From: a virus | Length of the DNA: 31,555 bases | Strand: one strand, 5' to 3' | Virus record (IMG/VR): IMGVR_UViG_3300013132_000161 | Span: 1-31,555 of that record | Position numbers and translations under genes: made by a program | Notes under the pieces: model-generated | The model's database searches: none | What the model was told of the DNA's origin: nothing | Seen by the model: the letters and a program-made list of their open reading frames with translations, nothing else | In this document: piece after piece, positions 3,679-26,556 of the stretch | Layout of the letters: each line of letters begins with the position of its first letter | Numbering within the stretch: position 1 is the first letter of the stretch

Positions 3679-5110
3679 GCAGGAATTGTTCCTCGAAATG
3701 CCGCCCGAATGCCGTCCCGCCAAGATTAGCCTGCGGGAATATACCGAGCAAATTTGGCCGACGATCGAACCGACGTCTGACCTTTCTTGGAACTGGCACT
3801 TAGACATCTTCGCGAAGAAATGTAACGACATCGCTCGCAAGCGGTCTCGTGATACGATCGTAAATGTGCCGCCGGGAACGATGAAATCGCTGTGGTGGAG
3901 TGTCATTTTTCCAACGTGGGTTTGGACGTGGTGGCCGGAATCGCGATGGATGTTTTCAAGTTATAATGGCGGGCTTTCAATACGCGACTCAACGAAGCGG
4001 CGAAGGGTGATTGAATCCGACTGGTATAAACGCTCCTTCGGTGTGCATCTGGTTCAAGATCAGAATCAAAAGATCCGCTTTGAAAACACGCTGGGCGGTT
4101 TCATGTTTGCCACGTCGACCTTCGGGCAGGTCACTGGCGAGCATATTGACTTTCTGCTGAACGACGACCCGCATAAAGCGGATGAGGTCTATAGCGAGAC
4201 TGAGCGGCAGTCGGTGATTGATTCGTACGAAAGCAATTACACGACTAGAGGCGTTAGTCGTAACGTCACTCGCATGGTGATCATGCAGCGTTTGCACGTC
4301 GAAGACCTTTCGGGCGTGCTGAAAAAGACAGGCGAGTGGGATCATATTTGCCTGCCTATGCGGTATGAATCAGGGCGTGATGACATACACGCCGAAGACC
4401 CTCGCAAAGAAGATGGGGAGCTACTGTGGCCGGAGCTATTCAGCGAGGAGAAGGTTGCGAAGCTCGAAGCCTCGCTGGGGATTAGTAAAACAGCGGGCCA
4501 ACTTCAGCAGCGACCGCCTGACCAATTAACGGGGGTAGAATGGCCTCAGTCATACTTCAGTGAAGATATCTTCTGTGCTGAGCATCGTTGGCCTGAAGCG
4601 TTTCAGATGGGTGTGATGGCGTTAGACCCGTCGAAGGGTAAAGACGGCAAAAAAGGTGACTATTCGCCAATCCTATTTGTGGGCGAAAATGGCGGGAAAC
4701 TGTGGGTTGATGCCGATATCAAACGCAGGCCGGTTGAGCAGATCGTTGACGACGGGATTGATATGGCGACCAAATACGGCCAATATTTGTTTGCCTTCGC
4801 GATCGAAGGCAACGGCTTTCAGGACTTGCTCAAACCGATGTTCGAGCGGCGGTTGATTGATCGCGGTCTGCTACCGTTGCCATTTCAAATCGTCGTCAAT
4901 TCCGTGAACAAGAAATTGCGAATTGCAAGGCTCGGACCATACTTTCACGGTAAGCAGATTGTGATTCGTGACAACGAAGGCGGCAGATTGCTGGTTAAAC
5001 AGTGCTCGCAATTCTCTATGAAAGAACAGTCTGGCGTTCATGACGACGGGCCAGACTGCTTAGAGATGGCGATTCGCGTAGGGCTTCAGATGCAAGGCGT
5101 GCGGTTATGA
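3575..5110 (+). CDS. terL: Terminase large subunit (packaging ATPase and nuclease)
   Basis: The protein has 511 residues. The ATPase half contains a deviant Walker A, Pro-Pro-Gly-Thr-Met-Lys-Ser at 99-105, a Walker B, Phe-Leu-Leu-Asn-Asp-Asp-Pro at 193-199, and a coupling motif Ile-Met-Gln-Arg-Leu-His near 236-241. The RNase H-like nuclease half offers acidic residues at Asp351 (Ala-Leu-Asp-Pro), Glu411 and Asp491/Asp494. It drives DNA into the prohead through the portal and cuts the concatemer. I kept ATG 3575, which has a CGAGG site and overlaps the small subunit; ATG 3698 is possible and would remove an N-terminal Leu/Ser-rich stretch. Its stop is coupled by ATGA to the portal gene. Confidence 0.92.
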   Translation: MASLGPASTTLKGLSDSELLLLSASELAELETLVEQELFLEMPPECRPAKISLREYTEQIWPTIEPTSDLSWNWHLDIFAKKCNDIARKRSRDTIVNVPPGTMKSLWWSVIFPTWVWTWWPESRWMFSSYNGGLSIRDSTKRRRVIESDWYKRSFGVHLVQDQNQKIRFENTLGGFMFATSTFGQVTGEHIDFLLNDDPHKADEVYSETERQSVIDSYESNYTTRGVSRNVTRMVIMQRLHVEDLSGVLKKTGEWDHICLPMRYESGRDDIHAEDPRKEDGELLWPELFSEEKVAKLEASLGISKTAGQLQQRPPDQLTGVEWPQSYFSEDIFCAEHRWPEAFQMGVMALDPSKGKDGKKGDYSPILFVGENGGKLWVDADIKRRPVEQIVDDGIDMATKYGQYLFAFAIEGNGFQDLLKPMFERRLIDRGLLPLPFQIVVNSVNKKLRIARLGPYFHGKQIVIRDNEGGRLLVKQCSQFSMKEQSGVHDDGPDCLEMAIRVGLQMQGVRL

Positions 5111-6630
5111 TTGATAACTTTGATGCGGCAAATATCGGGCGGACTGCTGAAAGCGTGTTATGCGATTGGCTCGAATCACAACTGCAAGTGATGGGTCCGA
5201 TTACTGATCCGTCTGACCCGCAACTCGGTGTGGATGGTAGGCTGTGGGATGTGCTTTCCACGGGGGACGAAGGCGACTTCATTCCATACCGCACTGAAGA
5301 CGACTTAGCACGCTGCCGCCGAATCGGTGAGTGGCTGTATTGGGCTTGCCCGTGGGCACGGGCCGCACAAGAAAACCGAGTCTCGTATGTTGTTGGCTTC
5401 GGGCATACCTATAGTGTGAATGCACGCAAAGACCGCGAACCAACAGGCGAGCAAAAGCGGCGGGTTTATGAGTGGCTGAAGGAATGGCAGAAGCTCAATA
5501 GGTGGTCACAGCGGCAGCGTGATAATCAACTGCAAGGTGATATGCTGGGCGATGTGTTCCTACGCAAATTCGATCTAGGAAATGGCTTCCTAGTCGTGCG
5601 TCCGATTCACCCGTCAGCAGTAAAGCGGCCTGATGATAAGATCGACGATCGGTTCTTGTTCGGCATTGAAACCGACCCGAACGACGTCGAGACGGTGCTG
5701 AATTACTGGGTGAATGGCGAGCCTATCGAAGCAAGTCTCATTCAGCACAGGAAATACTGCCCGCCACCGTTCGGCAAACGCGGGACGCCGTTACTGTGGG
5801 CGTGGCGATTTCATTTCCAGCGTGCTCTAAACATGCTGCGAAATGGCAGCAAGGTCGTCGAATTGCAAGCGACATACGCTGTGATCAAGAAGGTCGCGAA
5901 GCAAATGGCGGCGAATATGTCCGCTTGGGCGGCTGGTAATTCGAACGCCAGAGCGACGGTATCACAGCCAGGAATGGGCACTGGCAGCAGCAACGCGACG
6001 AACTACCAGAACGAGCAGAACGGCAAGATCGTTACGATTCCCGACGATCAACAGATCGAGCTACCGGGCATCGGAATTGATCCGTCGCGGTATGATGCCA
6101 GCGTTGGCACTGAGATGCGATCGGTCGCAGCGGCGATTGTCATGCCTGAATTTATGATGTGTTCAGACGCTCGAAATGCGAACCGAGCATCAAGCATTGT
6201 GGCGGGTGATCCAGCAGAACAAAACTTCCTGCGATTACAGCAGCAGGCGATCGACTGGGATCTTGAGATTATCAACGAAGCCGCTCAGTTAGCGGTTGCG
6301 TTTGGTGTGCTTCAAGAAGCCGATCTTGAAGACTTAGAGATCGTTGCGACCGCTCCTGAATTGTCGCAGAAGGACAAACTCAAGGACGCTCAATCGCGGA
6401 AGATTGACATCGAGAGCGGTATTCTGTCGGTAAAAACTGCGACGGTAGAAAGCGGTCGCGACCCTGAAGTTGAGCAGCGAAATAAGCAGGAAGAGCGGGA
6501 AGAAAATAACGAAATGAGAATCGCTCCGCAGGAGCGTGTTGATAATATGCCTGAGCCAATTGATGGCGAACCAGACGAAGGAGATGAGGACGATGAGCCA
6601 ACTGATTCTGAACCGAAAACAAGTAATTGA
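5107..6630 (+). CDS. Portal protein
   Basis: This 507-residue protein sits directly after the terminase, as expected for the portal that forms the DNA gate of the prohead. It has a long helical crown and wing region, a middle segment with Met-Pro-Glu-Phe-Met-Met followed by a Ser/Ala-rich part (typical of the portal stem/clip transition), and a C-terminal helical segment. The last 40 residues are very acidic (Glu, Asp, Pro). The call is from order, size and overall pattern. Its end overlaps the start of the next small gene. Confidence 0.88.
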   Translation: MIDNFDAANIGRTAESVLCDWLESQLQVMGPITDPSDPQLGVDGRLWDVLSTGDEGDFIPYRTEDDLARCRRIGEWLYWACPWARAAQENRVSYVVGFGHTYSVNARKDREPTGEQKRRVYEWLKEWQKLNRWSQRQRDNQLQGDMLGDVFLRKFDLGNGFLVVRPIHPSAVKRPDDKIDDRFLFGIETDPNDVETVLNYWVNGEPIEASLIQHRKYCPPPFGKRGTPLLWAWRFHFQRALNMLRNGSKVVELQATYAVIKKVAKQMAANMSAWAAGNSNARATVSQPGMGTGSSNATNYQNEQNGKIVTIPDDQQIELPGIGIDPSRYDASVGTEMRSVAAAIVMPEFMMCSDARNANRASSIVAGDPAEQNFLRLQQQAIDWDLEIINEAAQLAVAFGVLQEADLEDLEIVATAPELSQKDKLKDAQSRKIDIESGILSVKTATVESGRDPEVEQRNKQEEREENNEMRIAPQERVDNMPEPIDGEPDEGDEDDEPTDSEPKTSN

Positions 6631-9251: not shown

Positions 9252-10196
9252 ATGGCTACCGCAAAAACTATCAACCGCGAATCTGACGAAGTCTGCGAAT
9301 CCCTCGCAAACAGCGGGGCGATTGTCGATCGCGATGCCAGTCTCATTCGTGGTGTCAAGATTCTTGGCTTCACTTCAAAGAACAAGCGGACTTACCCGCC
9401 TGAAATCGTGCGGCAGTCTGTCGAGCAATACGAAGGCAAGCGAGTCAACCTCGATCATCCCGACGCGAACCAACTTGGCAAACCGCGTTCGGTACGAGAT
9501 CGGTTTGGTACTCTGACGGGTGTCAGATTTGTCGAAGGCAAAGGCTTATTTGCCGACCTCAAATTCAACCCGAAGCACGCTGCCGCAGATCAAATCACAT
9601 GGGCCGCCGAAAACGATGCAGGCTCGATTGGTTTTTCACACAACGCGACGGTCAAAACTCGCCAGGGCAATGACGGCAACGTCGTTGTCGAAGGCATTTT
9701 GAGTGTAAGGCACGTTGATATTGTTGCCGATCCGGCAACTACTGACGGCGTGTTTGAGCATGATACTTTTAAGACAACGGAAGGCGATGATATGGACTTC
9801 ACAAAAGTCACGCTTGAAGACTTGAAGGCCAATCGGCCTGACATCGTTGACGCGATCGAGTGGGCGAAGGCCAACGAGTTTGCAGAGCAAACTAAAGAGC
9901 TAGCGAGCCTCAAAGCAGCGGACGCAAAACGTCAAAAGCAGGCTGTTATTGAGGCAGAATTGAAGGCCGCGAAGCTTGATCCCGCCGACGCCAAGCACTG
10001 CTCAGCGGTCTTTTTGGAGCAACTCAATGCCCTGGAAGACGAGCAGGCTCGCAAGAGTTTGATCGACGATCGTGCGGTATTGGTGCTCGAAAGCAAGACC
10101 GACAAAGCACCGCAAAAACCGTTCACGGTCACAAATACTACCGAGAGCGTGACGCCATTAACGCGGCAGGAAATCCTCGCTGCATTTCGTCGCTAA
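9252..10196 (+). CDS. Prohead protease with C-terminal scaffold region
   Basis: The first 180 residues look like a phage prohead serine protease. They have Asn-Leu-Asp-His-Pro with candidate His69, Gly-Ser-Ile-Gly-Phe-Ser-His with candidate Ser126 or Ser129, and Val-Arg-His-Val-Asp-Ile-Val-Ala-Asp-Pro-Ala, a run typical of these enzymes. Residues 181-314 are helical, rich in Ala, Lys and Glu, like a scaffolding domain. The protease trims scaffold and capsid proteins during maturation. It lies upstream of the decoration and major capsid genes, its standard place. An internal start at 9792 could make the scaffold alone. Confidence 0.82.
   Translation: MATAKTINRESDEVCESLANSGAIVDRDASLIRGVKILGFTSKNKRTYPPEIVRQSVEQYEGKRVNLDHPDANQLGKPRSVRDRFGTLTGVRFVEGKGLFADLKFNPKHAAADQITWAAENDAGSIGFSHNATVKTRQGNDGNVVVEGILSVRHVDIVADPATTDGVFEHDTFKTTEGDDMDFTKVTLEDLKANRPDIVDAIEWAKANEFAEQTKELASLKAADAKRQKQAVIEAELKAAKLDPADAKHCSAVFLEQLNALEDEQARKSLIDDRAVLVLESKTDKAPQKPFTVTNTTESVTPLTRQEILAAFRR
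9792..10196 (+). CDS. Nested scaffold protein from an internal start
   Basis: Inside the protease gene and in the same frame, ATG 9792 follows a GGAAGG site with a 7-base spacer. The product would be 134 residues: the helical, charged C-terminal scaffold domain without the protease. Lambda makes its scaffold Nu3 within gene C in just this way. The boundary falls exactly between the protease-like and helical parts. Production of the shorter product is inferred, not shown. Confidence 0.5.
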   Translation: MDFTKVTLEDLKANRPDIVDAIEWAKANEFAEQTKELASLKAADAKRQKQAVIEAELKAAKLDPADAKHCSAVFLEQLNALEDEQARKSLIDDRAVLVLESKTDKAPQKPFTVTNTTESVTPLTRQEILAAFRR

Positions 10197-15516: not shown

Positions 15517-15698
15517 ATAATTCATTAGCGGAACGCGGTGTTTATCGGCGGATGCCGTGGTCTCAAATTTACCGTATGATGGGCGAGAAAGGATTCTCGT
15601 TCGCTGCGGTCGATGAAATGACACTGCTAGAGGTGTTCACGCATCTGGGTGCGAATATCCGAGGCATGGGCGGCCTCAAGCTCAAGAGGAAAAACTGA
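14953..15698 (+). CDS. Tail assembly chaperone, -1 frameshift (GT-type) fusion
   Basis: A -1 slip on GGGAAAC (15456-15462) joins 170 residues of the G-type frame to 78 residues of the overlapping frame, giving about 248 residues. The second frame is open from before the slip site to the stop at 15696-15698. It begins Leu-Glu-Trp-Pro-Asp-Arg and contains a helical region with Tyr-Arg-Arg-Met-Pro-Trp-Ser. That domain has no good independent start: TTG 15513 is poor. As in lambda, the T-like extension should recruit the tube protein to the tape measure. Confidence 0.8.
15456..15491 (+). promoter_or_regulatory. Programmed -1 ribosomal frameshift signal
   Basis: The slippery heptamer G GGA AAC (15456-15462) is in the correct phase for the zero frame. 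Five bases later comes a perfect 7-bp stem, TGGCCCG at 15468-15474 with CGGGCCA at 15485-15491, with a 10-base loop. All elements of a bacterial -1 site are present. It is close to the lambda G/GT heptamer GGGAAAG. Confidence 0.85.
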
Positions 15699-15699
15699 C

Positions 15700-18600
15700 A
15701 TGGCGTTTACTCTTGAGAATCCGGTTGTCGAATTTACCGCGAAAGGAATCGCGGACGTTCTTGCTCAGGCGGCGAAAGCGACTGCGGCGGTTGAAAATTT
15801 TGCGGCATCGACAAGCAGGCTGGAGAAGTCTGCTACTGCTTTTGCTGTGGTGAATGGTGTTGCGTCGGAAGTCGCTGCCATTCTGCCGAATGTTGCTACT
15901 GGATTTAATACAGCGGCAACTGCGGCTGCCCACTTAGGCGAACAACGAACGCCGATTGCTCAATTGGCCGTCGAGCTTGCGAAGATCAAAAAGAGTGTCA
16001 CCGATGCCACTACCGCGATGGCGCCGAAGGCTTCTAAGGGTGGCTTTTTTGCCGGGCTGCAAAGCATGGCGAACGAGATCATCGGGAGTTTTTCAAAGCA
16101 ATCGCTCGGCAAAGGCTTGAGCACGTTTGAGACGTCGCTCGGTACGCTGACGCCTAAATTGACGGCGGCGACAAATGCACTCGCTCAAACGACGCCGGTA
16201 GTAAATAGCTTTACGGTAGCAGTTCCAGCGGCGAGTTCTGCGACTCGGCAACTCGCAGTTGATATGGGTGCTTTGCGATCAAATAGCAGCGGGGCTGCTA
16301 AGTCGTTGACACCGCTGACGGCGGTAATGGCACGCATTGCAAAAGATGCTGGCGGTGCCGCGACTGGTACTTCATCGATGATGAAATCAATCACCTTCGG
16401 TGCGTCCGCTCGTGGTACTAAGGCCTTCGAAGCGGCGTTGACGCAGATCAAACCGAAGTCGGATTTGGCGAATAGTGCCTTGGCCGTTTTGACGCCGACG
16501 CTGGCAGGCTATACGCAGCATGCTCACACAGCGGCGATTACTACCAGAGACTTTGCGAGATCGCTGGCTGAAGTGAAATCAGGCTCTACGGGCCAGAGTC
16601 AGCAGGTCGGCTCGCTAGCTGATGCGATGAAAAAACTAGCGACGGCAACGGCGGGAACTGCGGGCCAGAAAGGCGGATTGAGAGGCTTTTTCTCAGGCTT
16701 TACGCCGCCCAACATGGGTGGTTTTTCGTCACAGTTAAGCGGTATCAAATCGCAGTTACTCGGTATCGTCGGCGTTACTTCAGTCGGTGCCTTAGGTGCT
16801 GGCGTGCTCAAGCTCGCTGCCGATGCCGAGACGCTACAGGTCTCGTTTGAGACGTTGCTGGGTAGCAGTTCCCAGGCGAAGACGATGGTCAAAGACCTGC
16901 AAAAACTCGCTGCAGAAACGCCGCTTTCCGAGATGGGTGTCGGCGACGCGGCTAAAAAAATGCTGGCATTTGGCTTCGCTGCCGAGTCGATTATTCCCAT
17001 GCTAGCCACGGTGGGCGATGCCGCTACATCTATTGCTGGCGGCGGGGCAGCAGGCGAGGAAGCACTAGCGGGAGTTGTGCGTGCCCTCGGTCAAATTAAG
17101 CAAAAGGGCAAAGTTCAGGCTGAGGAGTTTAATCAGCTAGCTGAGCGTGGCATTGGCGCTTGGGATATGCTGGCGACCGCAATGGGCGTTTCGGTAGCAG
17201 AGGCTCAAAAGCAGGTGACTGCCGGAAGCGTATCAGCACAGGTCGGAATTGATTCCCTGATGAAAGGCATGCAAGAAAAGTTTGGCGGCGGTATGAAACG
17301 CATGTCGCAAACTTCCGCTGGTCTATTTTCGACGTTGATTGATTCGTTTCGCTCGCTAGGCCGTAACATTGGCGAGCCGTTCCAGCCGTTCGTCAAATCA
17401 GCATTGAAAGCCGGTATAGAAGCTACATCGAGCCTACAAGCGGTCATCATGCCGAGTGTTAGAGTTCTTCAGCAGGCACTCGGCAAAGAACTAAAGCTCA
17501 ACATCGACGCCAATTCGGTCACAGCAATCGGCGATACGCTGGCGAGTATTACGCAGACGGTCGTTGATGGTGTTAGTTCGATCAAGAATTGGCTGCTTTC
17601 ACTGTCGCCTACTGTGCTCAAATTCGGCGGGGCGTTCGCTAGTATTCTGCCGCTCGTTTCAGCCTTTTCGACAGGCATGAGCCTACTTGCTCCAGTGCTA
17701 GCAGTGCTGCTTAATCCAGTCGGATTAATCACGACAGGCGTCGTCGCGCTAGGTGTCGCATTGTCGCAAAATAAAGGCATTGCTACCGCGTTTGGCAATG
17801 CGACAAAAGCAGCGTTCGAGCTGGTGACTTCAGCGTGGCAAGCGGCCTCAGAAATGGCAGGCGAGCTATGGGCAGCAATCGGCGAAACAGGGGCTTGGGA
17901 CGCGATTCAAACCGGTATCAAAGGCACAATGAATTGGATTGCTAGTCTAATGACTGACGTCGCATTCATGGCTCGAAATTGGAAGCAATCGGCGGTAATC
18001 GTTGGCGAATCTGTCAAGCTGATGTGGGATAACACTAAGCAGGCTTTCAGAAATATCGGTCAAAACTTTTTCGACTTTATTGCGGCACTCGAATCGTTCG
18101 CTAACGGCGAAGGTTTCAACTTTCAGTGGACTGGCCTAGCGGAAGGCTTCGAAAATTCAACACAACGAATGCAGAACGCAATCAGCGAGATGCAGGCGAA
18201 TGAAGAAAAGAGGCTGAAAGATCAAGCAGATGCACAGCGAAAAGTTGCTGAAGATAGCGTTGTCGCGACTCAAGAAACCGAGAACAAAAAGGAACAGATT
18301 CGTAAAGCCGGTGCTGATTCTAATGCTGAAACGCAAGACAAGATCAAGCGTGATATGCAATCAACGTCAATTTCATGGGTTGATGTTGCTGACCGCATCA
18401 AAGCAGGGTTCGATACATTTCCTAAGCCAGACGAGCCATCTTTAGGCCGCTCAATTGGAGAAGCCGCCGATAAAAATATGATGCAAGCGGCAAAAGATAG
18501 CCTCACGGGATTCACCGACGCTCAGATTGCGGAATCTCAAGCGGCGGGCTTTAGCGATGGGAATGAGAGTGCTAGACGCAGAGCAGCGATTGAAGAAGCG

Positions 18601-18765
18601 GCGGCAGAGGCGGCAACTGTTGCTACTCCAGACGAACAAGGGCATAAACTGCTACAGGAAGTCGCTAAGATTCAAGAGCAAATGACACAGTTGATGACGC
18701 AACTGGTAACAGCGGCGACGTCGACGGGCCTGAAAATTGAGCCTCAACCAGCAACACTAGGCTAA
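15700..18765 (+). CDS. Tape measure protein
   Basis: The protein has 1021 residues from ATG 15700, one base after the chaperone fusion stop. The N-terminal 380 residues are helical and rich in Ala, Thr, Ser and Lys. At about 381-567 lies the tape measure N-terminal-type domain: Phe-Glu-Thr-Leu-Leu-Gly-Ser, an Ala-Glu-Thr-Pro-Leu segment, and Ala-Glu-Glu-Phe-Asn-Gln-Leu-Ala-Glu-Arg. A strongly hydrophobic stretch at about 638-690 may insert in the membrane at DNA injection. A charged coiled-coil part lies near 827-885. The protein sets tail length. From its length the tail would be of the order of 150 nm, using the usual helix rise as a rough guide. Confidence 0.92.
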   Translation: MAFTLENPVVEFTAKGIADVLAQAAKATAAVENFAASTSRLEKSATAFAVVNGVASEVAAILPNVATGFNTAATAAAHLGEQRTPIAQLAVELAKIKKSVTDATTAMAPKASKGGFFAGLQSMANEIIGSFSKQSLGKGLSTFETSLGTLTPKLTAATNALAQTTPVVNSFTVAVPAASSATRQLAVDMGALRSNSSGAAKSLTPLTAVMARIAKDAGGAATGTSSMMKSITFGASARGTKAFEAALTQIKPKSDLANSALAVLTPTLAGYTQHAHTAAITTRDFARSLAEVKSGSTGQSQQVGSLADAMKKLATATAGTAGQKGGLRGFFSGFTPPNMGGFSSQLSGIKSQLLGIVGVTSVGALGAGVLKLAADAETLQVSFETLLGSSSQAKTMVKDLQKLAAETPLSEMGVGDAAKKMLAFGFAAESIIPMLATVGDAATSIAGGGAAGEEALAGVVRALGQIKQKGKVQAEEFNQLAERGIGAWDMLATAMGVSVAEAQKQVTAGSVSAQVGIDSLMKGMQEKFGGGMKRMSQTSAGLFSTLIDSFRSLGRNIGEPFQPFVKSALKAGIEATSSLQAVIMPSVRVLQQALGKELKLNIDANSVTAIGDTLASITQTVVDGVSSIKNWLLSLSPTVLKFGGAFASILPLVSAFSTGMSLLAPVLAVLLNPVGLITTGVVALGVALSQNKGIATAFGNATKAAFELVTSAWQAASEMAGELWAAIGETGAWDAIQTGIKGTMNWIASLMTDVAFMARNWKQSAVIVGESVKLMWDNTKQAFRNIGQNFFDFIAALESFANGEGFNFQWTGLAEGFENSTQRMQNAISEMQANEEKRLKDQADAQRKVAEDSVVATQETENKKEQIRKAGADSNAETQDKIKRDMQSTSISWVDVADRIKAGFDTFPKPDEPSLGRSIGEAADKNMMQAAKDSLTGFTDAQIAESQAAGFSDGNESARRRAAIEEAAAEAATVATPDEQGHKLLQEVAKIQEQMTQLMTQLVTAATSTGLKIEPQPATLG

Positions 18766-18768
18766 TAT

Positions 18769-19683
18769 ATGCCATCGACAGCAATACCATTCGAGGAGAT
18801 CACGCCGAAAGGTGGCGGGCTGAAAGTCGCTCGTGACGGATCGGCATCGGCAACTCGCGTTTTTAAGGTGTCAGGCCCTAATTCATTGGGCTTTATGTCG
18901 TATTTGCTCACCGGAGATCTAGGCTTCCCATTGGCTTATCCGGGCCTTCCTGGAATGCGAGTCGACGAAGTAACGCGGGAGAATTACACAGATAAGGCAA
19001 CGGCGGCTTCGTTCGGTACTTATACCGACGCGGCGAATCATCTTGCCGTCCGCGAAGAAGTCGAAATCACAGTCACATACAAACCTTTTCCGATTCCTTC
19101 GGCAGGTGATTCTGCTGATTTACCGAGTGGCACATGGGCTGAATATAAAACTAGGGCGGCAGGTGCGAGGCGGTCCATTCCAAAGACTCAGCTAACGTGG
19201 GCAACAGACGGCAAGCCAGTCATCGGCGAAGATGTCGAAGACTCGCTCTATCTTGTTGAATCCGAGCATGTTGTCACATGGCACAACGTGCCGAATCCCC
19301 CTTGGTCAGCGATTGCAAACTGCGAGGGTTGTATCAACGCCAATGAGTGGCGAATCCCTGGAACGCCGCAATATGTGTTTGCCGGGACGATGCTGTTTAT
19401 GGGTGCGACGACTTCACTGAAACTCGATCTAAATAGCTCGAACAACAAACGCTCGCTGGAATACTCGTTTCGATCGCGGCATTGGCGAGTCGGTCAACTG
19501 GGAAGCGGCAACGTCAAGAATACGGCAGGATCTTATCCCGGCACGGTTTACGGCTGGCAGTATATTATTCGGCCTGACGCGGCGGACGGTATTAAACTAG
19601 ACCGACCAGTGCGACCGAATGGCAGTTACCTTTACTCGACTGCAAATTTTGCGACGCTCTTTCAATTTGAAGCGTTTCCGTAA
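18769..19683 (+). CDS. Tail protein after the tape measure (distal tail candidate)
   Basis: The protein has 304 residues, is beta-rich with many Trp, Tyr and Pro, and has no membrane segment. It starts three bases after the tape measure stop. The gene after the tape measure often encodes the distal tail or baseplate hub protein, and the strand-rich composition fits. I see no specific motif, so the exact role is unsure. It has a pair of close Cys (Cys-Glu-Gly-Cys near 184-187). Confidence 0.55.
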   Translation: MPSTAIPFEEITPKGGGLKVARDGSASATRVFKVSGPNSLGFMSYLLTGDLGFPLAYPGLPGMRVDEVTRENYTDKATAASFGTYTDAANHLAVREEVEITVTYKPFPIPSAGDSADLPSGTWAEYKTRAAGARRSIPKTQLTWATDGKPVIGEDVEDSLYLVESEHVVTWHNVPNPPWSAIANCEGCINANEWRIPGTPQYVFAGTMLFMGATTSLKLDLNSSNNKRSLEYSFRSRHWRVGQLGSGNVKNTAGSYPGTVYGWQYIIRPDAADGIKLDRPVRPNGSYLYSTANFATLFQFEAFP

Positions 19684-19696
19684 AAAGGTGGGCGAC

Positions 19697-22519
19697 ATGG
19701 CCGAGTTCAAGGCGGGTCAGCCGCTCACAGCACAGGCACTTAACGAAGCATTCGAAGAAGTCTCGACGAATCGCAGCGAGGTGCCTTCGTTCGGCGAGCG
19801 GGTGCCGCAAAATAATAATCGCATTCGTGTGAGGCTCGATTATCCGTATCGCGCCCCGATGGGCGCTTGTGTTGGCATCGACTTTCCGATCCGAGGTCAT
19901 ACGGTCGAAGATACCAACGGGCTGTTGCGTTTTTTGCACGAGGAGACGGTCTACTCATGCACGAAGAATCAATATCGTCATCACAACCGTTGGGGCATTC
20001 TTGAGCAACCACTCGCTCCGGGAGAGGTTGGCTGGGCGATCGTTTCGGGCGTGGCTAAGACTTTTTGGCACGCTGCTTGGCCGCCGTATACGTCTGCCCG
20101 CAGTGCGATTGACGCTAACTATAAAAGCACTGAAGAAAACCTGCCGCCAGAAAGCACGAATGCGGCGGTCGATGAATATCGGCAGTTAGCCATTTTGAGT
20201 GCTGATTACTCAACATCAGAAGGAGCGGAGAGCGGGCTAAGAGGTTCTGAGCACTACTTAGAAAGCGGCCAGTGGCATAATCGCGAGCGACCGTGGTGGC
20301 TCGCCCCACGTCCAAGACCATATCCGCCCGAAGATGATCCGGATGCTGATAGCGCAAATGAACTGCTATACCCGTTTGGGGAAACACTTGAGTCGACTTA
20401 TAATCTTTTTTTGCAAGGTACTAGGACGCCTTATATGGCTTCATCCTACGGCAGGGCGATGGGCCTAAGCGGTTATGTCGTGCCTGAGCCGACATGCACT
20501 GGGACATCGACAGCAACATGCCAAGGCGCACACTGGGTTATCACAGAGAGCACATGCAATGGAGGGTGCTCTTCGTGGCATCTGATTGAAAGAATTGACA
20601 CTTCAGATAATTATGGATTGACGCTTCCGTGTGCTGAAGATTCTGTAGTCTATGATATTCCTTGCGGTCCAGAATATCCGGTTTTTGATTTCACAGCAGT
20701 TAGCCCAAATCAGAACGACAAGGTTTTTACGTCTCCAGTTGGCGATTGGGATAATTCTTATAAGGCGTATTTAGACTATGCTAGAAACTGGATTTTGGGA
20801 CATGCCATTCTTGGAACGTCTTCGAAATACGGGGTGATTGACGATGAGCTGACGATGATCGACGAGGAGTTGGATCATCGACCTCTTCATTTTCCAGATC
20901 CGCTCAATGACAGCAGTGTTGTTAATGTCGATGGAATCATTAAAGATGAGCAGTGGGGGCTGGTCTTAAGGGCATGCGCAAACTTAACATGCACATATGA
21001 ATGTGATGGTTCTTCTTGGCAAAGAGTCAGGGGGGAAACTCCATACTTTATTGACGAGCGTTGGCGATGTAAGTGCCCGGATGCGTGGATGGCGGATATG
21101 GCAGATAAAGATTTGCCATGCGGAGAAAATACGCTTCCGAAGGAATTCACCGTTGGGATGATTTATTCCCATACAGACATGATCGGGGCCTGTTGTGACC
21201 TAGGAAATAGCACATGCTCTAGGATTAGCCGCGAAGACTGCATTGATGCTGGCCATGTGTGGCGTGGTTATGGGTCTCTGTGCGAAGATGGGGTTTGCGA
21301 AAAAGGTGCTTGTTGCGAATACAATCCTACTCTCAGTTATTACGAGTGCTCTATTGTTTTTGAGCATGAATGCGGCGGCACATATCACGGAGATGGATCT
21401 AGTTGCAACCCTGACCCATGCAATGCTGTCGGTGCGTGTTGCGTTCCAGATATTGAGTCGAGGGACTGCCGAGAGATTACGAGGCCGGAATGCCTTGCTC
21501 TAAATGGTCATTTTTATGGCGAAAACTCTCAGTGCATTAGCGATATCACCTGCTTTCCGCAAGGTGCCTGTTGCACTCCGGCTGGTGGCGGAGCGACTAG
21601 CGGCAGTTGCTCGGTCGTTCAAGAAGTGTTGTGTGTTGGCTCATCTACATACCTTGGCGACGGGACGACGTGCGAGCCAGACCCGTGCAACCAAGCGTGC
21701 TGCATGCCAGCGAATGTTTTTCAGCAGTGTTTCGACTATTACCTATATGGTGCAACAGACAACTGCACGCTGGGTGGCGGTACGCCGCTTGGGCAGTTTA
21801 CCTCATGTGCCAGCGATGAAGGGTCATGTCCGCCTGATGAGTTTGGAGCGTGCTGCCGGAATAAGGGGATTGAGTATGTAATGACCTGTGAAATTCTCAA
21901 CGAGGCAGACTGCTTGGCGTTAGATCCGAACTACCCGTATGAAGCTGGTATTTATCAAGGCGACGGAACATCATGCACGCCTGATCCTTGCGGGGTTCCA
22001 ACAACAACCACAACAACCACAACAACCACAACAACCACAACAACTACTACCACTACCACGACTTCGTCAACAACCACAACAACCGAAGGCACATCATCGA
22101 GCACAACGACAACAACCGGAACAGGTGCTTGTTGTATCAATAATATTGAAGGCGGGCAGACGTGTGCCGTCGAAAATGAAGAAGACTGCAACGCTCATGC
22201 GGGCGGTGCAACATATATGGGCGACGGCACGACATGCTCGCCAAACCCGTGCAGCACAACATCGACAACAACGACATCGAGCACAACGACAACCTCGCAG
22301 GGCGGAAGTTCAAGCTCATCAACGACAACGACGCAAGGCGGCAGTTCGTCGTCAACGACGACTTCCGAATGCGGCGGAACATGCTTCTGGCAGTGTGCCG
22401 AAGGCAACTGGAGCGTTGTTACAGACGAGTGTGCGGGTGCTCCGTCTTGCGTTTGCCAAACGCCGTTTACTGAGTGTGTGAACGGCGGATTTGATACGAC
22501 GAATTGCTTCATTCCATAA
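19697..22519 (+). CDS. Large tail fibre/adhesin with Cys-rich repeats and Thr-rich stalk
   Basis: The protein has 940 residues from ATG 19697, after AAAAAGGTG. Residues 1-110 form a putative virion-attachment part. A middle region contains two loose Cys/Trp modules near 265-300 and 430-465. Residues 497-852 hold seven GACC-type repeats: each begins Gly-Ala-Cys-Cys (Gln-Ala-Cys-Cys in the fifth), and most end Gly-Asp-Gly-x-x-Cys-x-Pro-x-Pro-Cys. A run of 21 Thr (769-789) and a Ser/Thr stalk (about 853-892) separate the last repeat and a C-terminal Cys/Trp module. The many Cys imply disulfides formed outside the cell. It is likely the host-recognition protein. Parts of 20.5-21.5 kb are visibly richer in A and T than neighbouring genes. 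Four sugar-modifying genes follow directly. Confidence 0.8.
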   Translation: MAEFKAGQPLTAQALNEAFEEVSTNRSEVPSFGERVPQNNNRIRVRLDYPYRAPMGACVGIDFPIRGHTVEDTNGLLRFLHEETVYSCTKNQYRHHNRWGILEQPLAPGEVGWAIVSGVAKTFWHAAWPPYTSARSAIDANYKSTEENLPPESTNAAVDEYRQLAILSADYSTSEGAESGLRGSEHYLESGQWHNRERPWWLAPRPRPYPPEDDPDADSANELLYPFGETLESTYNLFLQGTRTPYMASSYGRAMGLSGYVVPEPTCTGTSTATCQGAHWVITESTCNGGCSSWHLIERIDTSDNYGLTLPCAEDSVVYDIPCGPEYPVFDFTAVSPNQNDKVFTSPVGDWDNSYKAYLDYARNWILGHAILGTSSKYGVIDDELTMIDEELDHRPLHFPDPLNDSSVVNVDGIIKDEQWGLVLRACANLTCTYECDGSSWQRVRGETPYFIDERWRCKCPDAWMADMADKDLPCGENTLPKEFTVGMIYSHTDMIGACCDLGNSTCSRISREDCIDAGHVWRGYGSLCEDGVCEKGACCEYNPTLSYYECSIVFEHECGGTYHGDGSSCNPDPCNAVGACCVPDIESRDCREITRPECLALNGHFYGENSQCISDITCFPQGACCTPAGGGATSGSCSVVQEVLCVGSSTYLGDGTTCEPDPCNQACCMPANVFQQCFDYYLYGATDNCTLGGGTPLGQFTSCASDEGSCPPDEFGACCRNKGIEYVMTCEILNEADCLALDPNYPYEAGIYQGDGTSCTPDPCGVPTTTTTTTTTTTTTTTTTTTTTSSTTTTTEGTSSSTTTTTGTGACCINNIEGGQTCAVENEEDCNAHAGGATYMGDGTTCSPNPCSTTSTTTTSSTTTTSQGGSSSSSTTTTQGGSSSSTTTSECGGTCFWQCAEGNWSVVTDECAGAPSCVCQTPFTECVNGGFDTTNCFIP
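21185..22252 (+). repeat. Seven Cys-rich GACC-type protein repeats
   Basis: The repeated unit is roughly 40-65 residues: Gly-Ala-Cys-Cys, a variable stretch, one or two single Cys, then Gly-Asp-Gly-Thr-x-Cys-x-Pro-x-Pro-Cys. The copies are well diverged at the DNA level, so they are old or imported repeats rather than a fresh tandem expansion. I recall similar repeats in secreted proteins of Planctomycetota; a search must confirm that. Confidence 0.8.
22001..22063 (+). repeat. Poly-threonine tract coded by 9-base repeats
   Basis: Twenty-one successive Thr codons begin with four exact copies of ACAACAACC and end in a mixed set of ACT, ACC and ACG codons. The repeat is in frame and its unit is a multiple of three, so slippage would change the stalk length without breaking the gene. 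It links Cys-rich repeats six and seven. Confidence 0.9.
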
Positions 22520-22532
22520 AGGAGTCCGAAAG

Positions 22533-24452
22533 GTGCTTAATAAGGTGCAGAAATTCGGCCAGATACTCGCCAGGATCGGCGATTGGCTCAGCAAGTTTGG
22601 CAAGAAAACCGAAGCGGCCAAAGGCTTGGGCGATTTGATCGAAGCTCAAACGCACGCCACCAAACTCGACAAATTCGCAGAATGGTTGGCTGTTGATATT
22701 TTGGGCCGTGAAGGCTGCGGTTGCCCTGCCAGACGTAATAGGCTCAACACGCTGTGGCCATTCAGCAAGCCTAAGCTGATTATCACAATCCCTGAATATA
22801 ACGACCGAGGCGGGTTGTGGGGCATGTTGCACTCGCTGGTCAGCGAGATTCAACGCTATCAACTAGAGCAATATGTTGAAATCATGGTGGTGACGCAGAC
22901 GCCTACGCTGCTCGCTCCTGAAAGGCATGTCACTGGATTTGGTACGCCAGAGCAAAAAGAGCATCAGCCAATCGGGCCAACGGTTGTTGCCGGTCACGAA
23001 CCGCTCAAAGGGATGTGTAATACCTTTACTGCTCGTGGCGTCAAAGTGCATTATAAAGAATTCGCACAGCCTATCGGCACCTCGCCTGCCAAGCGTGCTT
23101 GCGTTCGTTTTGCCGCACAAGAGAAAGCGGAATGGGTGTGGATTTGCGATTCTCATTTGCACTTTGTGCCAGGGTCAATCCATCGTTTTTATAAGTGGGT
23201 CTGCAAAACCAAGAACCGCAATAGCAAGCATCTCTATCACTGCCCGCTATTACTCGACGAAGGCAAGAGTGCCTTCACGGGCATGGAAACGCGTAAACCA
23301 AACAAGCTCGCCTTAATCGGCGGCGACAATCTTTGGGGCCAATTCAGAACCGAAGCCAAGTTGCTTTCTGAGGATTCGAAGCCTGAAGAAATACAGGCTC
23401 ACGGCGGTTTCTTTTTTGCAACGCGGGTTGATATCGCGTTAGCAACTTTCGGGCACGATCTTTTTAGGGGGTTCGGCGATCCCGAAACAATCCTGCACGA
23501 AATGCGACGAGCGGCAGGCTTCAAGGTCTATTGCCTGCCCGCGAAGATCGTGGCTTGCTGGCATAGGTTCTTGAAGGTCAGGCATAACGATTATCATTCG
23601 CCTTGGACTGATGCCCTTAGAAATCACGTCATCGGCGTGCTAATGCTGCGGGTGCATCTTATGAAAGAAGCCGTCTCAGCAGGATTTGACGAGCCGTTCG
23701 AATGGCTCTTGGCTTCATGGGTTGACGCCTTCCCGGAACGCAAGGAGCAAATTTACGCGACTGGTATCAAGGCTGCCGAGGAGTATGCAGCCTGGAAAGC
23801 CGACGTCGAGCAAATGCAGGAAAAAGCCAAACAACAAAAAGCAGAGCAGCAAGCAGCGAAGGCGTGCAAGATTACTGAGGAGAATCTTGAGCAGCGTTTT
23901 CAACGGCTGGCCAATACTCCCAGCGATATCAACGAGCACTTACCGAAACTCAAAGAGCTTGCCAGCAAATGCAAGTCTGTCTGCGAATTTGGCACTCGCG
24001 ACGGAGTATCAACGACAGCGTTGCTTGCTGGAAAGCCTGCCAAGGTCGTGACCTATGACACAAATCCCAGCGTGATCAACGAGGCACTTCGTAGACTCAA
24101 GCCTGAAGGCACCGAGCTATTTTATAAAGCCGGGCCGCAATTCAATACGGCGACGATGCCGCAAATTGAGTCCTGCGAAATGCTACTGATTGACTCGCTG
24201 AATACTCAGGAGCATGTCAGAAACGAACTGACACGGCATAGCGAAAGCGTATCGCGATGGATAGTTCTGCATGATTGCTCACCGCCGTTCGCAAACATGG
24301 ACGAAGGCGGCGGACCTGGTAAAGGTGTGTTGGCCGGCATTGCTGATTGGCGGCAAACGCCAGACGGCAAGCGATTCAAATTGGCCTACGAAAACAAGGC
24401 GAATCACGGCCTGCAAGTCTGGGAGCGAACGGAGCGACCGAATGGCAATTGA
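22533..24452 (+). CDS. Glycosyltransferase-methyltransferase fusion
   Basis: The protein has 639 residues. I chose GTG 22533, nine bases after AAAGGAG; GTG 22545 is possible. After a helical N-terminal part, residues 80-350 look like a GT-A glycosyltransferase (family 2-like): a strand Lys-Leu-Ile-Ile-Thr-Ile-Pro, an acidic Asp-Ser-His at 206-208 in the DxD place, His-Gly-Gly-Phe-Phe at 290-294 and Cys-Trp-His at 342-344. A charged helical linker follows (about 400-455). Residues 480-639 form a class I SAM-dependent domain with Cys-Glu-Phe-Gly-Thr-Arg-Asp-Gly at 484-491 and a later Leu-His-Asp-Cys. The gene starts 13 bases after the fibre stop. Confidence 0.72.
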   Translation: MLNKVQKFGQILARIGDWLSKFGKKTEAAKGLGDLIEAQTHATKLDKFAEWLAVDILGREGCGCPARRNRLNTLWPFSKPKLIITIPEYNDRGGLWGMLHSLVSEIQRYQLEQYVEIMVVTQTPTLLAPERHVTGFGTPEQKEHQPIGPTVVAGHEPLKGMCNTFTARGVKVHYKEFAQPIGTSPAKRACVRFAAQEKAEWVWICDSHLHFVPGSIHRFYKWVCKTKNRNSKHLYHCPLLLDEGKSAFTGMETRKPNKLALIGGDNLWGQFRTEAKLLSEDSKPEEIQAHGGFFFATRVDIALATFGHDLFRGFGDPETILHEMRRAAGFKVYCLPAKIVACWHRFLKVRHNDYHSPWTDALRNHVIGVLMLRVHLMKEAVSAGFDEPFEWLLASWVDAFPERKEQIYATGIKAAEEYAAWKADVEQMQEKAKQQKAEQQAAKACKITEENLEQRFQRLANTPSDINEHLPKLKELASKCKSVCEFGTRDGVSTTALLAGKPAKVVTYDTNPSVINEALRRLKPEGTELFYKAGPQFNTATMPQIESCEMLLIDSLNTQEHVRNELTRHSESVSRWIVLHDCSPPFANMDEGGGPGKGVLAGIADWRQTPDGKRFKLAYENKANHGLQVWERTERPNGN

Positions 24453-25314
24453 GCTTCTGACCGCAGGCACATGGCATGATTCGATTGGCGATATTGCCAT
24501 CATGCAAACCATGCAGAACGAGATGGCGTTGCGCGGCGTGCCGGTGGTATCGCAATCGCACTGGTCAGGCAGCGGCAGTGCGATTATTGGCGGTGGATGG
24601 CTACTGCATCCTAACGGAATGCAAGATCCGATCTTAGCCCCATTTCATATCGGCGGGCAGCATGTTTTGAACGCCGTTTCGGTCGCATCCGGCGAAGGTA
24701 ATTTCGAGCACCTCAAACACTATAAGCTCGTCACAGTTCGCGATGAGTTTTCGCGGCAGCAACTCTTGCCATTTCGGTCAGACGCGAAGTGCGTCCCATG
24801 TTCGACGGTGCTGCTAAAGCGACCGAATATCGACTATCTCACGAACTGCCACGGTTATCGCTGGCTCAAGACGCTCAAAGAGCGTAAAGGCGAATTCGTC
24901 GTCTACGACATCGAGCTAGAGAAAATGGTCGGCGATTACATCCATCGCATTCCGGTAGATACGCGGGGCTTTATGCGACGCAAAAGCGATGGCAAGCTGT
25001 GCGAGCATCGCAATCCCGAAGCACTGTTGGCACTGATATCGCAGGCTAAGTGCGTGATCACAGCGAGCCTGCATCTTTCGATCTTCTCGATGGCGATGGG
25101 CGTTCCGTTTGTGTGGCCGAATCAAGGCCAGTTTGCCAGCAAAGGTATCAATTACTGGGGCCGGGCTGGATTCCCGGAAGCATGCTGCGAAGTCGGGACC
25201 GACCTACTCGCTCACGCTCTGAATTATAGGGCGAAGATGCTCGACGTTCGCGGTGATGAAATCAGGCGAGCGACCGAGCACCTCGACGAAATCGCAACAC
25301 TACTTAAGGAGTGA
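24442..25314 (+). CDS. Polysaccharide pyruvyl transferase-like protein
   Basis: The 290-residue protein starts at ATG 24442 after GGAG, overlapping the fusion gene by 11 bases. It shows the features of the WcaK/PS_pyruv_trans group: an N-terminal Asp-Ser-Ile-Gly-Asp, an Ile-Ile-Gly-Gly-Gly segment (48-52), Val-Arg-Asp-Glu-Phe-Ser at 99-104, and the late Ala-Ser-Leu-His-Leu-Ser-Ile-Phe-Ser-Met-Ala-Met-Gly-Val-Pro at 208-222. Family members transfer pyruvate as a ketal to sugars in surface glycans. Here it would add charge to a glycan made or remodelled by its neighbours. Its stop overlaps a GTG of the next gene. Confidence 0.72.
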   Translation: MAIELLTAGTWHDSIGDIAIMQTMQNEMALRGVPVVSQSHWSGSGSAIIGGGWLLHPNGMQDPILAPFHIGGQHVLNAVSVASGEGNFEHLKHYKLVTVRDEFSRQQLLPFRSDAKCVPCSTVLLKRPNIDYLTNCHGYRWLKTLKERKGEFVVYDIELEKMVGDYIHRIPVDTRGFMRRKSDGKLCEHRNPEALLALISQAKCVITASLHLSIFSMAMGVPFVWPNQGQFASKGINYWGRAGFPEACCEVGTDLLAHALNYRAKMLDVRGDEIRRATEHLDEIATLLKE

Positions 25315-25319
25315 AAAAG

Positions 25320-25811
25320 GTGCATCCATCGAGCGTTGATTTAATGCGTAACTTTATCGAGGAGCGTCTTGATAAAAGTGCTCAATTACGAATCGCAGAC
25401 GTCGGCAGTTTTGATGTCAACGGTTGCTACCGACCGCTTTTCAAAAGTGAATCGTGGGAGTATGTCGGATTCGACAAAGAACCTGGGCGAAATGTCGATC
25501 ACCTTTGGCCGTACTCGGAAGATCATGTCGGTCAATTTGACGTGGTGATTTCAGGCCAGACGATGGAGCATGTTGATAAACCGTGGATTTGGATTCACGA
25601 CGTCGCAGCACTCGCTAAGCAGGGCGGATTGATCTTTATCATCGTGCCGAATTCCTTCCATTATCACGGGGAAGGGCACTACCGTGATTACTGGCGAGTT
25701 TGGCCGGAAGGCTTAGAAGTCATTTTCAAGGAAGCAGATCTTGAGGTTCAATACTGCCGCCGAGTGGGTATGGACACGTTCGGTCTAGCGATCAAGGTGC
25801 AATATGATTAG
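25320..25811 (+). CDS. Class I SAM-dependent methyltransferase
   Basis: The 163-residue protein has a Rossmann methyltransferase pattern: Ile-Ala-Asp-Val-Gly-Ser-Phe as motif I, an acidic end to strand 2 (Val-Gly-Phe-Asp), then Phe-Asp-Val-Val-Ile-Ser-Gly-Gln-Thr-Met-Glu-His-Val, as in Methyltransf_11-like enzymes. I place the start at GTG 25320, nine bases after AAGGAG; GTG 25311 would leave no spacer. It probably acts on a sugar, given its neighbours, but protein or other targets are possible. It overlaps the next gene by eight bases. Confidence 0.72.
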   Translation: MHPSSVDLMRNFIEERLDKSAQLRIADVGSFDVNGCYRPLFKSESWEYVGFDKEPGRNVDHLWPYSEDHVGQFDVVISGQTMEHVDKPWIWIHDVAALAKQGGLIFIIVPNSFHYHGEGHYRDYWRVWPEGLEVIFKEADLEVQYCRRVGMDTFGLAIKVQYD

Positions 25812-26556
25812 ACATGTTTTAGGGCTTTGCCCGACGTACAATCGGCCTGGATGTGTTGCAAACACGCTCGCTCAATGGCGAGATCAGGTCGTTGATTGCG
25901 AGCGGCATTTGATCGTTTTCGACGATGCTGGGCAGTATCAGCCAGAGTCATGCGAACTATGGCGAATTGTCTCTTGGAAAGAACGCTGCCCAACTTTGGG
26001 CGAGAAATTCGACAACCTGCTACGCATGGCGGTCGGCATCGCATTAGAAAAGCGATGGAGTACAGCAGAGACGCTTTGCGTTGTTTTTGAAGACGATGAC
26101 GTTTATCTGCCGAATCATATTCAGTGCCATATTGACGCGGTTGATACTGCTGAGAAACCGTGGGCAGCACCGTCGCGAATTTATGCGAACGACGGTTGCG
26201 GGCGAGGCAAGGTGCATCTCAGTAATGCGACGGGAAGGTATCACGGGGCTTGGAGCTATGAGCTTTCAGCAGCACTGGCGGTCAATGGTTATCCGCATTT
26301 CAACGGCGAAAACGGCATTGGCTTCGATCTCGTTTTCGGCGGCAGAATGCGGCAGCGGTGGGGCGATCCAGTCGATACTACTCCAGGCGAGTCGAAGCCT
26401 CATTACATTTACAGGTGGGGCACGGCATCGCGAAACGGATCGGCCTTCGGAATAGAGGGGATGTTGAGGGAGCAGGGTGAGCCGAAGTATCGAGGACGAA
26501 TTCATCCACTATATGACGTCGAGACGCTGGGGTATTATTCGGAATTCGCGAAATGA
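25804..26556 (+). CDS. GT-A glycosyltransferase (family 2-like)
   Basis: The protein has 250 residues. The N-terminus (Leu-Cys-Pro-Thr-Tyr-Asn-Arg-Pro) is the standard first strand of family 2 transferases. Phe-Asp-Asp-Ala at 39-42 and Phe-Glu-Asp-Asp-Asp-Val-Tyr at 95-101 supply the acidic nucleotide-sugar and metal site. The start follows AAGGTGC and overlaps the methyltransferase. There is no membrane segment, so it is likely cytoplasmic and soluble. It is the last gene of the sugar cluster. Confidence 0.78.
   Translation: MIRHVLGLCPTYNRPGCVANTLAQWRDQVVDCERHLIVFDDAGQYQPESCELWRIVSWKERCPTLGEKFDNLLRMAVGIALEKRWSTAETLCVVFEDDDVYLPNHIQCHIDAVDTAEKPWAAPSRIYANDGCGRGKVHLSNATGRYHGAWSYELSAALAVNGYPHFNGENGIGFDLVFGGRMRQRWGDPVDTTPGESKPHYIYRWGTASRNGSAFGIEGMLREQGEPKYRGRIHPLYDVETLGYYSEFAK

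Follow-up and report, generated by a model that had tools for sequence, protein, structure and literature searches.

The stretch of DNA analysed here (the window, 31,555 nucleotides) is the entire IMG/VR virus record IMGVR_UViG_3300013132_000161 of 31.6 kb. It encodes a tail fibre with serine- and threonine-rich stalks (positions 19697–22519), directly followed by four genes for sugar-modifying enzymes (22533–26556). With these genes the phage probably encodes its own mucin-type O-glycosylation cassette, directed at its tail fibre, a reading inferred from genomics to which we assign a probability of roughly 0.77. An earlier note, made from the letters of the sequence, had already favoured glycosylation of the fibre over remodelling of host glycan. 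This preference is supported because the enzyme genes adjoin the stalk and their open reading frames (ORFs) overlap, the first enzyme has a catalytic site and fold like those of polypeptide N-acetylgalactosamine transferases (GalNAc-Ts), stalks and enzymes co-occur in other viruses, and the stalk residue matches the enzyme family. The cluster also lacks membrane helices.

The fibre is a protein of 940 amino acids, encoded on the plus strand like all the domains and enzyme genes described below, and contains an N-terminal attachment domain, Cys-rich repeats and Ser/Thr stalks. The N-terminal domain, fibN (19703–20059), is common to the fibres of related phages; it aligns with an 11-sequence profile (A8) with an hhalign probability of 94 and an E-value of 1.6e-7, and is homologous by the same method to the N-terminus of other stalked fibres. 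Seven Cys-rich (G)ACC repeats, overlooked by the earlier note, are located before and between the stalks; those of the GACC...GDGTxCxPDPC form occupy 21185–21997 and are of a type known from Planctomycetota proteins. The first stalk (21998–22126) is made up of 21 Thr residues plus SSTTTTTEGTSSSTTTTT, and the second (about 22253–22366) of STTSTTTTSSTTTTSQGGSSSSSTTTTQGGSSSSTTTS. The run of consecutive threonines reported in the earlier note is exactly 21 residues long (22001–22063), and its Ser/Thr-rich stalk was found as these two stretches. Among 2000 shuffles of the fibre protein, the longest Thr run was six. All four Thr codons are used in the stalks, while Ser is encoded by both TCN (16) and AGY (7) codons. 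Because the codons are mixed, the tract is more than a slipped triplet, and the mixture points to selection at the amino acid level. A 9-base repeat, ACAACAACC, is present inside the 21-Thr run.

Between the stop codon of the fibre and the GTG start codon of the first enzyme gene (22533) there are 13 bases, as the earlier note had stated with all coordinates right, and AAAGGAG precedes the GTG. The gene (22533–24452, 639 amino acids) encodes a fusion of a GLGD domain, a glycosyltransferase (GT) and a methyltransferase. The GT domain (22764–23675) is of the GT-A, GalNAc-transferase type, with the motifs DSH (23148–23156), GGFFF, GFGDPE and CWHRF, the His of the last at 23562–23564; it is called the DxH glycosyltransferase hereafter. 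An alignment (A6) of 19 sequences, the window enzyme and 18 relatives, shows no variation at Asp129, His131 or His267 and very little at Glu241. The earlier note had proposed structure prediction as a check, and models were made of both glycosyltransferases. An AlphaFold2 model of the DxH domain, calculated from this alignment, has a predicted local distance difference test score (pLDDT) of 80 and a predicted template modelling score (pTM) of 0.82. Its best fold matches in the PDB are polypeptide GalNAc-Ts (entries 8ujg, 6e4q and 1xhb, E = 1.9e-10), followed by GlfT2. A profile search of PDB sequences likewise retrieved GalNAc-T10 (E = 2.5e-9), T4 and others, in which the DxH motif and the distal His both align; the top sequence hit of the DxH profile is TarP, yet it covers just the first 120 positions. 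C-terminal to the GT-A domain lies a methyltransferase-like domain (Methyltransf_24-like, 23985–24275), which is a weak match to PF13578 (E = 0.005, under the curated cut-off).

GalNAc-Ts (family GT27) start mucin-type O-glycosylation in animals, and the animal enzymes prefer Thr. The window enzyme resembles them in its DxH motif and distal His, its GT-A fold and its top fold matches, and many of its relatives are encoded beside Thr- and Pro-rich putative substrates. It differs in being viral, in its identity of only about 15% and in its fusion to methyltransferase-like and phage GLGD domains; no lectin domain was found in it. The first glycosyltransferase is thus predicted to have a GT27-like metal site and fold, but membership of GT27 is not claimed, because the lectin domain is absent and the activity is only predicted.

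Also overlooked in the earlier note was the N-terminal domain of the fusion, a small phage domain. It lies within the first 75 residues, has the form GLGD...CGCxxRxxxLNxxWPF (22623–22772) and is elsewhere a stand-alone phage protein. A scan with the motif GLGD...CGCxxRxxxLNxx[FW]P[FY] gave 99 viral loci (L023–L142), in every one of which it is a small protein. These stand-alone proteins (PHROG 32048/27568) often lie behind a sigma-factor-like gene and before the terminase. The domain was rejected as a clue to targeting: its stand-alone relatives are located near sigma-like, terminase and replication genes, and not near sugar genes.

The remaining three genes complete the overlapping four-gene set described in the earlier note. 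The ATG of the second (24442–25311) lies within the end of the fusion gene (stop codon 24450–24452), and its product belongs to the polysaccharide pyruvyl transferase family (PF04230, E = 1.3e-18, 68.4 bits against a curated cut-off of 25.3). It is followed by an S-adenosylmethionine-dependent methyltransferase (25311–25811; PF13489, Methyltransf_23, E = 1.7e-7) and a second glycosyltransferase of the GT2 type with a DDD motif (25804–26556), each ORF overlapping the preceding gene. The AlphaFold2 model of the second glycosyltransferase has an ordinary GT2 fold (pLDDT 91), with SpsA/TarP-type matches. In Pfam both glycosyltransferases match GT2 weakly, and neither is well named by Pfam or PHROGs. 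None of the four cluster proteins contains a hydrophobic stretch of membrane-helix grade (top 19-residue hydropathy 1.56), and a Pfam scan of the window proteins gave no match to a flippase family.

Three surveys of IMG/VR suggest that such stalks and enzymes are paired in many other viruses as well. For all sets compared in the first survey, an ORF was counted as Ser/Thr-rich and nearby when it reached at least 60% Ser+Thr across 40 residues and lay at most 6 kb away. The contigs surveyed are fragments, and the statistics take dereplicated loci as independent, which is true only in part. In this survey, 56 further viral loci were retrieved by scanning with an alignment of five GT2 sequences. 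Of these, 29 have a Ser/Thr-rich ORF nearby. In the controls this holds for 2 of 62 viral loci that had been selected by a different protein, and for 0 of 20 regions drawn at random from the same planctomycete genomes. After dereplication of the GT2 loci, 20 of 39 are positive (p = 1e-8). The maps show a recurrent module of tape measure, p264, stalked fibre, GT4 or DxH glycosyltransferase, and GT2.

The second survey selected loci by the tail protein p264, a neighbour that is neither stalk nor glycosyltransferase; more than 570 relatives were found in IMG/VR, and the best 80 were kept. The fibres behind p264 have a common N-terminal domain of about 200 residues and occur with or without a stalk. 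Stalks were defined by homology in this survey, a positional definition of the fibre having mis-picked ORFs in GC-rich contigs. The earlier note had wanted a survey of the joint gain and loss of cluster and stalk, and joint gain and loss is what 34 dereplicated loci with enough sequence show: 12 have a stalk and GT4/GT2, one a stalk only, one the glycosyltransferases only and 20 neither (p = 3e-7). The sole stalk without GT4/GT2 is that of L304, which carries GT25-like and GT32-like genes. On these loci, what the stalk predicts is a specific enzyme pair, not sugar genes in general. Separate Ser/Thr-rich genes are located upstream of a PF11051 gene in L271, L294 and L303, and after an MptE-like gene in L336 and L337 (in L336 by reading the sequence).

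Some of these loci have features of their own. L304 (8798–14585) encodes two successive Ser-rich proteins and then the GT25-like and GT32-like enzymes, which make up a third set of enzymes behind this fibre domain. In L302, L309, L313 and L326 a TubC_N docking domain is fused to GT2 behind stalk-less fibres, an odd pair for a phage. In L336 (6796–8954) a Ser-rich protein with a Hint/intein-like segment (CLLCGTLVTMADGRRVPIESLAPGD) lies directly behind the MptE/Maf-like gene of a phage tail module.

The third survey used eleven DxH sequences, an earlier eight-sequence alignment being too divergent for scanning. It gave 353 relatives, of which the best 80 were kept, many of them in large phages. 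A Ser/Thr-rich ORF is present in 24 of the 38 dereplicated loci with enough upstream sequence, nearly always upstream and on the same strand, and in about eleven loci it ends 11–14 bases ahead of the glycosyltransferase gene, as in the window. The plan closest to that of the window is found in L391, with a Cys- and Thr-rich fibre, a DxH glycosyltransferase and GT2. Outside their Thr-rich parts the proteins beside DxH enzymes differ, and include small Thr-Pro proteins, repeat-domain proteins and Cys-rich fibres. Small Thr-rich proteins of the large phages in L359, L374, L389 and L412 (around positions 5100–6000) have a common C-terminal motif, approximately CxxxCxxLx[YF], for which a role as recognition tag is possible.

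The glycosyltransferase family predicts the stalk residue, DxH enzymes going with Thr and GT4 enzymes with Ser. In the first set of loci, Thr is the commoner of the two residues in 10 of 11 DxH loci and Ser in 13 of 14 GT4 loci, the GT4 exception (L231) having one GT4 and two DxH genes. In the DxH set of the third survey, the Ser/Thr-rich neighbour is Thr-dominated in 22 of 24 loci, including L371 with its ORF on the opposite strand. There is a slight overlap between the two sets, since IMG/VR is the source of both. The split is not caused by GC content: among loci with a GC fraction of at least 0.5, a Thr-rich stalk lies beside 12 of 12 DxH and 0 of 13 GT4 enzymes, and in a regression the enzyme type has t = 8 and GC no effect. 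In two loci the link with tail ancestry is broken by a swap. The p264 and fibre domain of L156 are those of the Ser/GT4 group, yet this locus has a Thr stalk and a DxH enzyme; L184 has a tape measure and gp304 like the window, yet a Ser stalk and GT4. The residue match and the swaps together form the pattern that would be expected of enzyme–substrate pairs.

Several observations weigh against glycosylation of the fibre's own stalk. About half of the GT2 loci, and 14 of the 38 DxH loci, are without a strongly Ser/Thr-rich neighbour, and L157 has a DxH enzyme with a mostly Ser stalk. The ricin-type lectin domain of animal GalNAc-Ts has no Pfam match in the window fusion. Two Planctomycetota loci of the same kind, L174 and L179, are apparently chromosomal and not prophage. 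Stalk-less fibres are also trailed by sugar genes of other families (PF11051, FkbM, TubC_N-GT2), because of which the region behind the fibre is a general site for sugar genes, with other targets possible. Lastly, the link between stalk and glycosyltransferase could stem from joint inheritance of a tail module, against which just two swaps speak.

The best-surviving alternative, although unlikely, is that the enzymes alter the host surface glycan, for instance to keep out superinfecting phages or prevent progeny from re-adsorbing, and that the stalked fibre is a separate adhesin and a neighbour by chance. Surface polysaccharide clusters typically contain members of the pyruvyl transferase and GT2 families, and glycosyltransferase and FkbM genes follow stalk-less fibres too; however, this explanation predicts neither the co-occurrence with stalks nor the Thr/Ser match to the enzyme family, the cluster is without membrane proteins, and the top fold matches are protein O-glycosyltransferases. 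It is more doubtful still that the enzymes act on phage DNA or glycosylate a virion protein other than the fibre. Known phage glycosyltransferases do hypermodify DNA, and those of mycobacteriophages modify capsid and tail tube (PMC12619734; PMC12363180), but the location of the genes, immediately after the fibre gene in many phages that are unrelated, and the match to the stalk residue point to the stalk, and the DxH fold is closest to polypeptide transferases. Least probable is that the Thr/Ser tracts are unmodified, disordered linkers from repeat slippage, with the glycosyltransferases adjacent through joint inheritance of one tail module: the 9-base repeat and the p264 and fibN common to many stalked loci would fit, but the mixed Thr codons, both Ser codon families, the same pairing on unrelated tail proteins and the swaps in L156 and L184 do not.

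Virion glycosylation has been described for the mycobacteriophages Che8, Corndog and Myrna (Freeman et al. 2023, as cited in PMC12363180 and PMC12619734). There, too, the glycosyltransferases are encoded by the phage, but the subunits reported to carry glycans are those of capsid and tail tube, whereas the putative target in the window is the Thr/Ser stalk of the fibre. A further difference is that the window fusion has no tblastn match at E ≤ 1e-3 in a collection of 50,697 phage records, which likewise contains no match for the pyruvyl transferase, GT4 or p264. The product of the pyruvyl transferase gene (24442–25311) scores well above the family cut-off, but the gene differs from those of known polysaccharide pyruvyl transferases in its position in a phage tail operon; its activity is predicted. 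Gtr-type serotype conversion uses a membrane flippase and a membrane-anchored glycosyltransferase, unlike the window cluster with neither membrane helix nor flippase match.

In the window, terminase, portal, head genes, a neck-type protein and the tape measure (15649–18765, PF20155) are followed by gp304, the fibre and the four enzymes. The tail protein gp304 (18769–19683, plus strand) has a homologue in L184 (E = 2e-4) that adjoins the tape measure and the Ser-rich fibre; homology of gp304 to p264 was not shown by hhalign (probability 1.3). A second assembly of the same virus (IMGVR_UViG_3300014720_000057, 44 kb) is 100% identical across window positions 9697–31535. This contig (L006, 189–488) also contains an ORF of about 99 residues made up almost wholly of Gly/Ser/Tyr/Asn repeats (GYGYGYGSGNGNG). 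Scans of IMG/VR with single proteins matched this same virus alone, and a promoter and terminator scan was disregarded because shuffled DNA yielded a similar number of sites.

The host of this uncultured phage is probably a planctomycete, because matches to the Cys repeats and relatives of the glycosyltransferases occur in Planctomycetota. Searched as a DNA pattern with one genome per species, the GACC...GDGTxCxPDPC repeats gave 15 hits: nine in Planctomycetota or organisms with Phycisphaerae/Phycisphaerales names, two in other phyla and four in unnamed bacteria. The window fibre matches these repeat-bearing bacterial proteins with E-values down to 5e-47. Both glycosyltransferases have relatives in Planctomycetota genomes, several of them within apparent prophage tail modules with tape-measure-like genes. 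The chromosomal-looking loci L174 (7782–9510) and L179 (1587–11000) encode Ser-rich proteins beside GT4 and GT2, and the host may own a Ser-rich glycoprotein system. The planctomycete Kuenenia stuttgartiensis is reported to have a heavily O-glycosylated S-layer (PMC5088730); this is protein O-glycosylation in the phylum of the likely host, but of a host S-layer and not of a phage fibre.

If the cluster glycosylates the fibre stalk, the DxH enzyme would add the first sugar to stalk Thr and Ser residues in the host cytoplasm late in infection, the second glycosyltransferase would extend it, and capping of the glycan would fall to the pyruvyl transferase together with both methyltransferase activities. 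The product would be a stiff, hydrated and possibly charged stalk on the virion, which may hold the tip off the tail and shield it from proteolysis, or alter binding. To our knowledge, virion glycosylation has been demonstrated in few phages only. A literature search of partial coverage found no description of phage fibres with Thr/Ser stalks and GalNAc-T-like enzymes; phage virion glycosylation itself is known, but the mucin-type version with enzyme-matched stalks appears to be new. It is reasonably likely that several lineages of tailed phages have a true mucin-type system, with DxH enzymes for Thr and GT4 enzymes for Ser, exchanged as stalk–enzyme pairs among otherwise unrelated fibres. If so, hundreds of uncultured phages would make mucin-like glycoprotein fibres with their own enzymes, and the enzyme type could be read from the stalk and the stalk from the enzyme. 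It would also become possible to test bacterial protein O-glycosyltransferases whose Thr or Ser acceptors are defined, and the enzymes that start animal mucin glycosylation would have a relative in bacterial viruses.

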